64,000 nucleotides of DNA from Candidatus Chromulinivoraceae bacterium (GTDB lineage Bacteria; Patescibacteriota; Saccharimonadia; Saccharimonadales; Saccharimonadaceae): the NCBI GenBank assembly GCA_035478595.1, contig DATIJL010000016.1:62001-126000 (forward strand). Direction: 5' to 3'. Below the pieces are notes generated by a model. It was not told the DNA's origin. It was given only the letters and a program-made list of their open reading frames with translations, and searched no databases. Below, piece after piece: positions 41,103-44,797 of this stretch (positions are counted from its first letter, which is position 1; each line of letters starts with the position of its first letter). Made by a program: the position numbers and the translations under genes.

Positions 41103-42290
41103 TTAGGCATCTTTCGGGCGTAAGCCAACGGCTTTTTGGGCGCGTAATAATGTTGCACTAGCAACGGTTGATAATTCGGCCTCGGATTTTTGCAACTTAG
41201 CGATAATCACTTGATCATCAATAGCAGCAAGACGTGCCTGGAAGTCTGTCAGAAACTGACGAACTTCATCCGCAACAACTTTTTTAAAGTCGCCGTAGCG
41301 GGTTTGGCCTTCAAACTCTTTCACAACTGCATCGCGTGGAACGCTACGTAGTAATGCCAGAATCTCCAGAAGGTTACTGATACCCGGCTGGTTTTCGCGA
41401 TCAAAATGAATTTCAGCCTTGTCGTCGGTTGTGGCGGCCATTATTTTTTTAGCAGCCACGTCTGGGTCGTCACCTAGGAAAATGACGCCCTTACCGGTTT
41501 CATCACTTTTGCTCATTTTTTTAGTAGGCGTAACTAAGTCTTTAATCCGAAGGCCTTGGTCTTTACCAAAAAACTCGTGCTGCTTTGCAACGGGTTCTGG
41601 AATGGTAAAAATATCACCAAACCGGTTGTTCATGCGCTCCCCAATATCCCGAGTAAACTCAACGTGCTGAGATTGATCATCACCAACCGGAATATAGCTT
41701 GCATCGTAAAGGAGAATATCAGCGGCCATAAGAACCGGATAATTGAACAGTCCTACTGATGCCTCCTTCTCCTGTCTGTCAACTAGCTCCTGTAGGGCAG
41801 TCGATGTCATAGCTAGATACTCGGCAAATTTCTGTTCGTTGTAGCTCTCGCCAAATTTATTTTTCATTTCTTGGAGATGCTCGATTGCTTGGCGAATTTC
41901 TTCCCGATAGTCAATTCGATCAGCCTTGTCCTTGAATTGGATCATCTTACTCATTTCGCCAAAACTAGTAAAGCAATCAAGAATCCACGTCAGCTCGCTG
42001 TGCGCAGAAATATAGCTTTGGCGGTATAAGTAGATATCGTCGTTATCAAGCGGTAGGCCAGCGGCTGCATAAAGACGTGCGTTATGTAAAATCTGTTCAT
42101 ATAGTGTGCTGTGGTCGATAGGCGTAGTAAAGCTGTGTAGGTCAGGAATAAACATGTTGATGCGGTATTCGTTTGAACGATTTTTAGCCATATCAATCAT
42201 TGGCAAAATGCCGCCAAAATAGTTGCCGATAGTTAAGTCGTTATTGGCGCGCAGGCCAGTGAGAATAGTTGGTTTCATAGCTATATCCAT
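41103..42290 (-). CDS. trpS: Tryptophanyl-tRNA synthetase
   Basis: A class I aminoacyl-tRNA synthetase charging tRNA-Trp (the window has the tRNA at 18712). The HIGH-type motif is LTIGNYFG and the KMSKS motif is intact (TKKMSKSDETGKG). GDDQSQHVEFTRDIGERMNNRF is the usual dimer/tryptophan region. The first ATG (42290) overlaps the upstream stop (TAATG); a second ATG at 42278 lies 10 nt after TATAAT, so both a coupled and a near-leaderless start are possible. The operon begins with a leader peptide that contains a Trp codon (43867-43944). Confidence 0.96.
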   Translation of the reverse strand: MDIAMKPTILTGLRANNDLTIGNYFGGILPMIDMAKNRSNEYRINMFIPDLHSFTTPIDHSTLYEQILHNARLYAAAGLPLDNDDIYLYRQSYISAHSELTWILDCFTSFGEMSKMIQFKDKADRIDYREEIRQAIEHLQEMKNKFGESYNEQKFAEYLAMTSTALQELVDRQEKEASVGLFNYPVLMAADILLYDASYIPVGDDQSQHVEFTRDIGERMNNRFGDIFTIPEPVAKQHEFFGKDQGLRIKDLVTPTKKMSKSDETGKGVIFLGDDPDVAAKKIMAATTDDKAEIHFDRENQPGISNLLEILALLRSVPRDAVVKEFEGQTRYGDFKKVVADEVRQFLTDFQARLAAIDDQVIIAKLQKSEAELSTVASATLLRAQKAVGLRPKDA

Positions 42291-43003
42291 TATACCTTAC
42301 TCTGGTAGGTCTTGTATGCTTTGAACCCTAAATATTTAGTGTACTTTTTGTAAGAGTTTTCACCTACTAGAATCGGGTAGAAGCCAAGCGGACTCATTTC
42401 AAAATTACGAAGCTCTTCGGCTTGTTCTTGAGTGATCTCATCCTTACCTAGCAAGTCACCAACTTCATATACTGTTTTTGTTTTTTTGCTGGCAGCATTG
42501 TGCAGATATCTATCGATGTCACTCGTCAGCTGTTCCATTAGTTTGGTTGTAAGTTGTATAACATTAACCTCGATAGAGGCAGACTTTGAATACACACCGA
42601 TAAGTGACGTCTCAACGATTTCGTGATTCATATGGACGATCTTTTCAATAGATGAAGCACGTATAAATTGACGGTTGTCATCTGTAATGCCAGCCACGAT
42701 GAGACAAGGAGGTTGACTACACGTTGTTGTATGCAGATCAAGCACAAGATCGAAATCCTGCTTTTTAATGTACTTTAAGATCGTATTGGCGCGCCGCTCC
42801 TCATATGTTGTATCGCCCCCGGTATAGCTACGATTAAGATCTGACTCGATGTAGCGTACTTTTTGACGATACGCCCTGAGGTTACCTCGCTTAAACGTAA
42901 TGAAAGGCAGCAGATCAAGACGATTTGAGGCTATATACGCATATAGCTGCTCACCGAGCAGTTCATTACCGTGTTGCGATCCAAGCAAAAGTATTTTATT
43001 CAT
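42290..43003 (-). CDS. Succinylglutamate desuccinylase/aspartoacylase-family zinc hydrolase
   Basis: 237 aa. Zinc-binding motif GSQHGNE (His, Glu) at residues ~8-14, ESDLNRSYTG, and DLHTTT with the third His are all visible. These amidohydrolases cleave N-acyl amino acids or related peptides. It overlaps the preceding acetyltransferase remnant by 8 nt and is coupled to trpS. An acetyl-transfer/deacylation pairing with the GNAT gene is a tempting inference. Confidence 0.85.
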   Translation of the reverse strand: MNKILLLGSQHGNELLGEQLYAYIASNRLDLLPFITFKRGNLRAYRQKVRYIESDLNRSYTGGDTTYEERRANTILKYIKKQDFDLVLDLHTTTCSQPPCLIVAGITDDNRQFIRASSIEKIVHMNHEIVETSLIGVYSKSASIEVNVIQLTTKLMEQLTSDIDRYLHNAASKKTKTVYEVGDLLGKDEITQEQAEELRNFEMSPLGFYPILVGENSYKKYTKYLGFKAYKTYQSKV

Positions 43004-43599
43004 GAATTGATTCCTTATTTACGTTAACTGATACGGCAAGTGCATTTCCGGGCTTTTCAAGCAAAGTGCAACGCTCTTTTAGCACATGACCGTTATATTC
43101 TCTAGATGCAGGATCATAACTGCCATAAAGACCATCTGGCCCATACCTATCTATATGATACGCAATACCTTCATGTATCGATACGTGTGGGAGTGGACTA
43201 CTTAGTTGTAAAAGAACATCTGCCTGTCGAGTGACAGCACCTAGGATGCGGAGAATAGCTGGATTGCGCGTATAGGCGCAAAGATGTTCTGCAGGGTTTG
43301 AATCTAAAAATTCCTGAACGATTTCACTGCCTATTCCCTTTTTCTGTAAATCCGGGTCAACAATTATTCCCGCAAGTTCGATTGCCTGGCTGCCAAAGTT
43401 GTCTCCGATATGCAGCAAATGCAAGAAGTCGTGTCTCATTCTTTAGCAATTGAATATAGTCGGCACTCTCTAGGTGGGACTTGGTGTCTAAAAAGTTATT
43501 CTCGTCGGCTTCTCGGCCGAAACCTTTGGCGGTTATAGCGGCAGCGGCTTCCATATTTATGCCACGAATCGTCTGTACTGTCTCTAGTGATAGTTTCAT
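42996..43599 (-). pseudogene. GNAT acetyltransferase gene split by a frameshift
   Basis: The start ATG 43599 follows TAGGAGAAAGAA. The first frame runs to about 43405 (…YIQLLKNETRLLAFAAY) and then loses sense and stops at 43357. The second frame, open 43439-42996, continues with DNFGSQAIELAGIIVDPDLQKKGIGSEIVQEFLD, the acetyl-CoA-binding motif A of GNAT enzymes. A one-base change near 43403-43410 joins the two into a ~200-aa GNAT protein. It could be a real inactivation, a programmed +1 shift or an assembly indel. The operon partners on both sides are intact. Confidence 0.75.
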
Positions 43600-43820: not shown

Positions 43821-43842
43821 TAAAAACCGCCTGTCTGGCGGT
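43821..43842 (-). terminator. Attenuator terminator of the trpS operon
   Basis: ACCGCC / GGCGGT stem with a 5-nt loop and TTTTTAAA on the minus strand. A CTGGCGGT sequence upstream (43892-43885) can pair with ACCGCCAG of this stem and prevent its formation. Confidence 0.75.
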
Positions 43843-43866
43843 CTCTTCGATATTTTTTAGATTGTG

Positions 43867-43944
43867 TTAAAAAACACGGAACAAACCGCCAGAGCTTCTG
43901 TCGGTAAACCAATATGCGCTAAAGATCACTGTTTGTCTGTTCAT
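43867..43944 (-). CDS. Leader peptide of the trpS operon (25 aa)
   Basis: ATG 43944 lies 8 nt after the extended -10 box TGTTATAAC, so it would be translated from the RNA 5' end. The peptide MNRQTVIFSAYWFTDRSSGG… ends LFRVF, with a Trp codon at position 12 (43911-43909) flanked by Tyr and Phe. The antiterminator strand CTGGCGGT lies inside its coding region after the Trp codon. A ribosome stalled at Trp would leave that strand free and allow read-through into the operon containing trpS. This is a prediction from sequence. Confidence 0.6.
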   Translation of the reverse strand: MNRQTVIFSAYWFTDRSSGGLFRVF

Positions 43945-43952
43945 GTATTTTA

Positions 43953-43958
43953 GTTATA
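43953..43958 (-). promoter_or_regulatory. Extended -10 promoter of the trpS operon
   Basis: Minus strand TGTTATAAC (TGn-TATAAC), without a convincing -35 box, just past the stop of the upstream hydrolase gene. Confidence 0.6.
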
Positions 43959-43984
43959 ACACAAATATTCTACTACTACCACTA

Positions 43985-44797
43985 TTATCTTGCTGCATCG
44001 CGGATTGCTTGAGCTACTGTACTAATATAGAGCCGACCTCGCACTTCATGTCCTGCAACGATAGCCGTAAGGTTGGCGTGCTTGTTTTGCTTAGTAAGGT
44101 ATCGAAGATTTTTTATAATAACAACCGGATCAAGCAGCCCGCATATCACAGAAATCGGTATTCTCAATCTTATCGCATCCCGAAGTGAGGTCTGATTAAT
44201 AATACTCGCCTCGAGCGCGTTCATGTAAATTGGCGCATTTTCGGGAGTAAGGCTAAACGTGGCATTTACAAGCCCCATTCGGGTAACAAGCGCCGCAACT
44301 CGCATAAACTCATCTGGTCGCTTCCCTGCCAGTTTAAAAAGGTTTATAAGTATTCTGTCGCTACTCGGCATAAGACGGGGGTTTGATTGGTCTTCCTTAT
44401 AAAAAGGAGGGCTGCAAAGAATGAGTGAACTTACCAGGAGCGGGTAGCGTTTAGCTACCTCAACCGCAACGAGGGCTCCTAAGGAATGCCCGACGATAAT
44501 TACCCGCCCAGTAAGGTGCAATTTAAATAATGTTGCGATAACAGAACGAGCCTGAGTTTTAGCACTATATATAGCCCACTCTGGTCGAGGAGATTGTCCA
44601 AAACCCAAAAGATCGACAGTTACTACCCGTATATCTTTTGGCAAACTATCTATAACACTACTCCATGCTTTGCCCGAGTTACCAATTCCGTGAATAAATA
44701 AAACCGTTACCTTGGGATGTTTTTCTTTTGTAGACCGAGTATCCGCGTAAAGTGCGTAGGGAACCTTTAGCCAGCGGTGCAAAAGAATATCGATCAT
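43985..44797 (-). CDS. Alpha/beta hydrolase
   Basis: 270 aa. The nucleophile elbow is GHSLGA (Ser ~105), the oxyanion region is LFIHGIGNSGKAW, and the catalytic acid and His are in ICGLLDPV and VAGHEV. No signal peptide. The substrate is unknown. It lies 48 nt downstream of the rRNA methyltransferase gene on the same strand. Confidence 0.88.
   Translation of the reverse strand: MIDILLHRWLKVPYALYADTRSTKEKHPKVTVLFIHGIGNSGKAWSSVIDSLPKDIRVVTVDLLGFGQSPRPEWAIYSAKTQARSVIATLFKLHLTGRVIIVGHSLGALVAVEVAKRYPLLVSSLILCSPPFYKEDQSNPRLMPSSDRILINLFKLAGKRPDEFMRVAALVTRMGLVNATFSLTPENAPIYMNALEASIINQTSLRDAIRLRIPISVICGLLDPVVIIKNLRYLTKQNKHANLTAIVAGHEVRGRLYISTVAQAIRDAAR

Follow-up and report, generated by a model that had tools for sequence, protein, structure and literature searches.

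A putative leaderless trp-type attenuator at the head of trpS operons in Saccharibacteria, and a candidate frameshift site at a tryptophan codon

The trpS operon and its leader

The window (the whole stretch of DNA that was analyzed, 64,000 nt) contains on its minus strand an operon with the gene order leader, small ORF, two-frame GNAT acetyltransferase gene, AstE/AspA-like gene, trpS, and pseudouridine synthase gene (Table 1). An alpha/beta hydrolase gene, which ends at 43985, lies upstream of the leader on the same strand. The extended −10 promoter ends 8 nt upstream of the leader ATG, and an intrinsic terminator, consisting of a GC hairpin and a T-run, is found between the leader ORF and the first gene in the window as well as in its relatives. 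The folding energy of the leader RNA (z = −3.4) beats that of 198 out of 200 dinucleotide shuffles. The start position of the first small ORF past the terminator is an ATA (43797-43795) that follows a good Shine-Dalgarno (SD) sequence, AAGGAG; there is no in-frame ATG at this position, so that the ORF has either a rare AUA start or is a damaged gene.

Table 1. Positions of the leader elements and operon genes in the window
Feature	Position	Strand	Basis
Extended −10 promoter, TGT + hexamer TATAAC (hexamer 43958-43953)	43953-43960	−	sequence
Leader ORF, 25 codons, leaderless, MNRQTVIFSAYWFTDRSSGGLFRVF	43867-43944	−	sequence
Leader start codon ATG	43944-43942	−	
Leader stop codon	43869-43867	−	
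Control codon Trp UGG (codon 12), between Tyr UAU and Phe UUU	43909-43911	−	
Segment 1, ACCGACAG, directly 3' of UGG-UUU; partner segment 2	43898-43905	−	covariation, chimera test
Segment 2, CTGGCGGT (43892-43885), plus antiterminator extension	43871-43893	−	covariation, chimera test
Segment 3, ACCGCCAG (43842-43835), plus extension AAAATATCGAAGAG	43834-43856	−	covariation
Terminator hairpin 3:4	43822-43842	−	sequence, covariation
Terminator stem ACCGCC / GGCGGT, followed by T-run	43842-43837 / 43831-43826	−	
First small ORF past the terminator, 62 codons	43608-43797	−	sequence; no Pfam match
GNAT acetyltransferase gene, two frames (0 frame 43599-43357, +1 frame to 42996)	42996-43599	−	
Candidate +1 frameshift site, GGAGA-CAA-CTT-TGG (43406-43393; CTT 43398-43396, Trp TGG 43395-43393)	43390-43407	−	
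Expected junction peptide of the +1 GNAT product, RRQLGSQAIELAG			
AstE/AspA-like gene	42290-43003	−	PF24827, E 1.2e-16
trpS, tryptophanyl-tRNA synthetase	41103-42290	−	TIGR00233, 257.9 bits (cut-off 176.75)

The original prediction of a leader-peptide attenuator had described the extended −10, the 25-codon ORF with its Tyr-Trp-Phe stretch and Trp at codon 12, both pairing strands, and the terminator, and all of these were recovered at the same positions. Its antiterminator, the pairing of CTGGCGGT with ACCGCCAG, covaries among relatives, but the predicted helix is longer than had been proposed: 43893-43871 pair with 43856-43834, and the extension runs through TTCCGTGTTTT / AAAATATCGAA. Likewise, segments 2, 3 and 4 had been described, but segment 1 had been missed. 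With segment 1 and the extended antiterminator, the anatomy of a classical trp-type attenuator would be complete.

Conservation of the leader element across the order

Identical copies of the 17-mer TATTGGTTTACCGACAG occur in three further genera of the family, always upstream of a trpS operon, and the first genes behind these copies differ (a DAHP synthase gene, a gene for an uncharacterised protein of 339 aa, and a 79-aa ORF). A covariance model built from the window leader and these three relatives yielded matches in 38 of 295 family genomes, representing 25 of 61 genera, and trpS was located on the same strand 75–2316 nt downstream in about 30 of the 38 genomes. A second model, built from 30 leaders, had matches in 97 of 295 genomes from the order, spread over 73 of 144 genera. 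Altogether, relatives of the element are present in more than 100 Saccharibacteria genomes from one order (Candidatus Saccharibacteria / Saccharimonadia). A covariance search of 287 phylum-wide genomes resulted in five matches, all of them inside the same order and none outside. At this sensitivity, the family thus seems to be confined to the order. The Rfam models, including Trp_leader and T-box, did not match the element at either the gathering or a permissive threshold, in line with the original view that it is not a T-box.

Among the genes behind the element are those for Trp charging and for aromatic metabolism. In 95 of 117 stretches, trpS is found 0.07–2.5 kb downstream, with a median distance of 344 nt, and some of the remaining stretches end at a contig edge or were too short; aromatic genes are found in others. 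trpS is the commonest constant gene of the putatively regulated operons, and the first genes vary. The family also stands before DAHP synthase, prephenate dehydratase, TyrA and TrpB-like genes. Weak or partial matches that lack a link to trpS (G012, G149, G138) were excluded as possible chance hits or terminator look-alikes.

Several operons carry serial leader pairs (L077 in G051, L098 in G042, L121 in G372, and L112 in G049), and L116 (G379) has a further attenuator match inside the operon, at 1874-1988. The order in G049 is a FYFWF leader, DAHP synthase, a YWL leader, an Asp/Glu racemase-like gene, and trpS. Many operons (L012-L037, L072-L151) contain an ORF of 50–110 aa between attenuator and trpS, and these ORFs mostly do not cluster between genomes. 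A protein family of about 345 aa is encoded behind four leaders (L130 in G128, L006 in G016, L144 in G006, and L106 in G445), with an M20-type peptidase gene next; the G128 member had no Pfam match.

An ATG-started leader ORF is present in 112 of the 117 relatives. Its best-kept codon is UGG, which occupies the same column in 104 of the 112 leaders. The preceding codon specifies Tyr or Phe in 93 leaders, and the following codon specifies Phe in 91. A −10-like hexamer (at least 5 of 6 positions) is found 6–9 nt upstream of the ATG in 66 of the 112 leaders, and a −35-like hexamer 29–32 nt upstream in 53. Other offsets of the promoter hexamers mostly occur in 1–5 leaders each, except for a second −35 offset of 20 nt (n = 11). 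An SD-like sequence precedes the leader ATG in only 3 of 112 leaders. The promoter spacing and the near-absence of SD motifs across the order suggest that transcription starts at or next to the ATG and that the leader ORF is leaderless, as originally proposed.

The TGGCGG of segment 2 falls in frame 2 in 42 leaders, in frame 1 in 36 and in frame 0 in 7. Reading in all three frames argues that the constraint on this segment acts on the RNA; at the codon level, it is the Trp codon that is kept. Conservation of the 3' half as a peptide was ruled out because of the three frames. In 55 of the 85 leaders in which both could be placed, the stop codon follows segment 2 at a distance of 15–18 nt. The median distance from the end of the model match to the start of the first downstream ORF is 17 nt, and the distance is at most 35 nt in 94 of 115 cases. 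A promoter would not fit into such a gap between the terminator and the first gene, and the first gene is therefore likely to be transcribed only via read-through of the terminator. A transcription start downstream of the terminator, the outcome named at the outset as contradicting attenuation, thus finds no place in these leaders.

The existence of three mutually exclusive helices, 1:2, 2:3 (the antiterminator) and 3:4 (the terminator), is supported by covariation in a MAFFT alignment of 30 leaders. For helix 2:3, scored over 21 pairs, 90.9% of the cells are paired, and 39 cells are changed on both sides, compared with 15.1 in shuffles and 4–11 in slid registers. For helices 1:2 and 3:4 together, 89.1% of the cells are paired, with 28 both-side changes compared with 9.2 in shuffles and 4–12 in slid registers. 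One covarying position pair was seen as G-C, C-G and U-A. In a chimera test with 104 leaders, all three helices were on average more stable with their native partners than as cross-species chimeras (p = 2e-8, 2e-10 and 3e-5), and for helix 3:4 the leader's own median chimera was beaten in only 40 of the 104. Opposite-strand matches in seven loci, which reflect the palindromy of the element, and the internal L116 match had been dropped before this test. Neither the covariation nor the chimera statistics correct for common descent, and a tree-based test of single pairs had too little power. In L029, L035 and L037, the terminator is re-registered to GAGGCC/GGCCTC; it still overlaps the antiterminator strand, so that the competition is kept.

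Proposed mechanism and the signal that is sensed

We propose that the element is a ribosome-mediated, trp-type transcription attenuator that senses charged tRNA-Trp, possibly also charged tRNA-Tyr and tRNA-Phe, and that controls the trpS operon. From the sequence comparisons, we put the probability of this interpretation at roughly 0.87. The conservation of UGG and the covariation of the alternative pairing, two of the features on which the original prediction was to be checked, as well as the downstream trpS genes, all argue for such an attenuator at the head of the operon.

Transcription would start at or next to the ATG, and translation of the leader ORF would begin on a leaderless transcript. 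With sufficient Trp-tRNA, the ribosome would pass the UGG and reach the stop codon, about 16 nt beyond segment 2. Hairpin 1:2 (ACCGACAG with CTGGCGGT) would re-form behind it, and the ribosome at the stop codon would cover the 3' extension of strand 2, so that helix 3:4 could form and transcription would terminate. With scarce Trp-tRNA, the ribosome would stall once UGG has entered the A site, thereby masking segment 1 (ACCGACAG). Segment 2 and its extension would then pair with segment 3, the terminator would be blocked, and the genes from the first one to trpS would be transcribed. A ribosome that holds UGG in its A site shields about 12 nt, counted from UGG; the predicted footprint, UGG UUU ACC GAC, would hide most of segment 1 and leave segment 2 free. 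Termination had originally been ascribed to ribosomes that finish the peptide and sit against the antiterminator strand. Such a ribosome would indeed abut segment 2 and cover the extension, but the main block would be the 1:2 hairpin, which had been overlooked. Two observations fit the proposed attenuator less well: there is a single Trp codon, compared with two or three in classical trp leaders, and UGG is missing from the conserved column in 8 of 112 leaders.

In a general aromatic attenuator, stalling at any codon of the conserved triplet, whether UAU (Tyr), UGG (Trp) or UUU (Phe), would open the operon, and the switch would report scarcity of any aromatic aminoacyl-tRNA. We consider this possible, if somewhat doubtful. 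The frequent Tyr or Phe codon before UGG and Phe codon after it, as well as the occurrence of the family before DAHP synthase, prephenate dehydratase and TyrA genes, would be in accord with a wider range. Furthermore, leaders before such aromatic operons are richer in Phe codons (2.08 vs. 1.36, p = 0.003), and at least three Phe codons occur in 9 of 24 of them compared with 10 of 88 others (p = 0.005), both p values ignoring phylogeny. Single leaders point in the same direction: the FFYFWF leader of G041 precedes a prephenate dehydratase gene, and the leaders of G223 (SYSF) and G006 (FYIF) have no Trp and retain Tyr and Phe. The G223 leader precedes genes for a putative NAD-binding protein and a member of a prephenate dehydratase cluster. 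In keeping with Trp sensing, the NWW leader of G107 precedes a TrpB-like gene (NF009057). However, UGG is the best-kept codon, trpS is the commonest constant gene, and a ribosome waiting at the leader Tyr codon would hide only about 3 bases of segment 1. For the window leader, Trp is the safest single claim, and the range may possibly extend to the other aromatic amino acids.

Two further explanations dispense with the sensing of tRNA charging. TnaC and Erm leaders stall ribosomes via the nascent peptide, and arrest peptides can contain hydrophobic aromatic motifs, so that the conserved YWF core might mean that a nascent SAYWF peptide arrests the ribosome in response to a small-molecule ligand or drug. 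The residues that flank the core vary freely, though, the reading frame changes after it, and an aminoacyl-tRNA synthetase and aromatic amino-acid genes are just the targets expected for tRNA sensing; an arrest peptide is thus very unlikely. The nearby end of the alpha/beta hydrolase gene on the same strand could also suggest that the hairpin is just the terminator of that gene and the short ORF a product of chance. The relatives have different upstream genes, while the leader, the promoter spacing, the covarying helices and the downstream trpS persist across many families of the order. A mere terminator of the upstream gene was rejected because the element is conserved behind different upstream genes, and we regard its probability as negligible.

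A split GNAT gene, known systems, and implications

The GNAT gene between the leader and trpS is split at CTT TGG in 11 of 12 homologues (the window gene and L157, L158, L160-L166 and L175), one of which, G346, is from another family of the order. The layout is shared: 67–68 codons are followed by CTT TGG, the 0 frame reaches a stop within 2–12 codons, and the remainder of the gene is in the +1 frame. The twelfth homologue, G028, is unsplit and aligns straight across the junction. For the window, the joined protein (P0001) was translated with TGGC read as G at the shift, and its GNAT match, which spans the junction, is the better-scoring one (28.1 vs. 20.9 bits). About 3 nt upstream of CTT, 10 of the 11 split genes have a G-rich, SD-like run (GGAGA, GGAGG, GGGAG, GAGG, GGGGA or GGCGA), which is absent in G346; these runs were recognized by eye, without a statistic. 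The Leu codon at the junction is CTT in all 11 genes, for which the probability by chance is about 5e-7 given the Leu codon usage of these genes and assuming independence, which related genes do not have. A whole-genome scan for further SD-CTTTGG sites was unselective, with 25 places.

This anatomy resembles that of the prfB (RF2) frameshift site, which shares the nearby 0-frame stop and would also share a putative SD-like sequence about 3 nt before CUU, the CUU to UUU slip and a slow A-site codon. However, the A-site codon of prfB is UGA, whereas it is UGG in 11 of 11 GNAT sites, and the product is an acetyltransferase encoded in a trpS operon, so that the element would be functionally prfB-like and is not a prfB element. 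A prfB-like anatomy with UGG at the position of UGA suggests that the GNAT CUU-UGG element is a starvation-dependent +1 frameshift site. Even the unsplit homologue retains the Gly codon (GGN) that is read past the shift, and UGG may therefore follow from CUU-U plus Gly. Still, the shift would depend on slow decoding of a Trp codon, in a trpS operon behind a predicted Trp attenuator. The trpS operon might thus read the charging of Trp-tRNA twice, at the leaderless attenuator and at CUU-UGG in the GNAT gene, with full-length acetyltransferase made mainly when UGG is hungry. This dual reading may hold, but we offer it tentatively and stop just short of calling it probable. According to a 2016 review, there are no known examples of hungry-codon frameshifting that make starvation-specific proteins (PMC5009743). 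If the proposal is true, the GNAT acetyltransferase would be a natural protein from starvation-dependent hungry-codon frameshifting, and the purpose of such frameshifting in nature would become directly testable.

The attenuator itself appears to be of a known kind. Like the trp attenuators of E. coli (trpL) and Sinorhizobium meliloti (trpLE(G)), it has a leader peptide with a Trp codon, exclusive 1:2, 2:3 and 3:4 pairings, and a terminator before the first gene, and the trpL RNA of S. meliloti also starts at the ATG, that is, it is leaderless (PMC7298713). In contrast to both, the Saccharibacteria element would control trpS along with aromatic genes rather than chiefly trpEDCBA, it usually has one Trp codon within a Tyr-Trp-Phe core, and its sequence is unrelated. 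Candidate leader-peptide attenuators before the aminoacyl-tRNA synthetase genes trpS and leuS have been predicted in some Streptomyces only; the leaders are GC-rich, and the trp-operon leaders contain two or three UGG repeats (PMC1262725). Compared by description, the Saccharibacteria element differs in being order-wide and in having a long, extended antiterminator. With T-boxes it would share the antitermination of aminoacyl-tRNA synthetase genes in response to tRNA charging, but its sensor would be a control codon in a leader ORF that is translated, and no T-box model matches it. In a literature search with little coverage of subscription journals, nothing relevant on attenuation turned up for Saccharibacteria, Patescibacteria or the candidate phyla radiation, which is weak evidence of absence. 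Thus, the proposed mechanism is of the trp type, and its lineage and gene setting are without a description that we could find and without an Rfam family.

For bacteria of the Candidate Phyla Radiation, amino-acid control appears to have hardly been described. An order-wide, covarying, leaderless attenuator before trpS and aromatic genes suggests that a translation-coupled sensor of an aminoacyl-tRNA has been retained, or has evolved, in bacteria whose genomes measure about 1 Mb, and the family offers a model RNA that is searchable and can be tested in a heterologous host.
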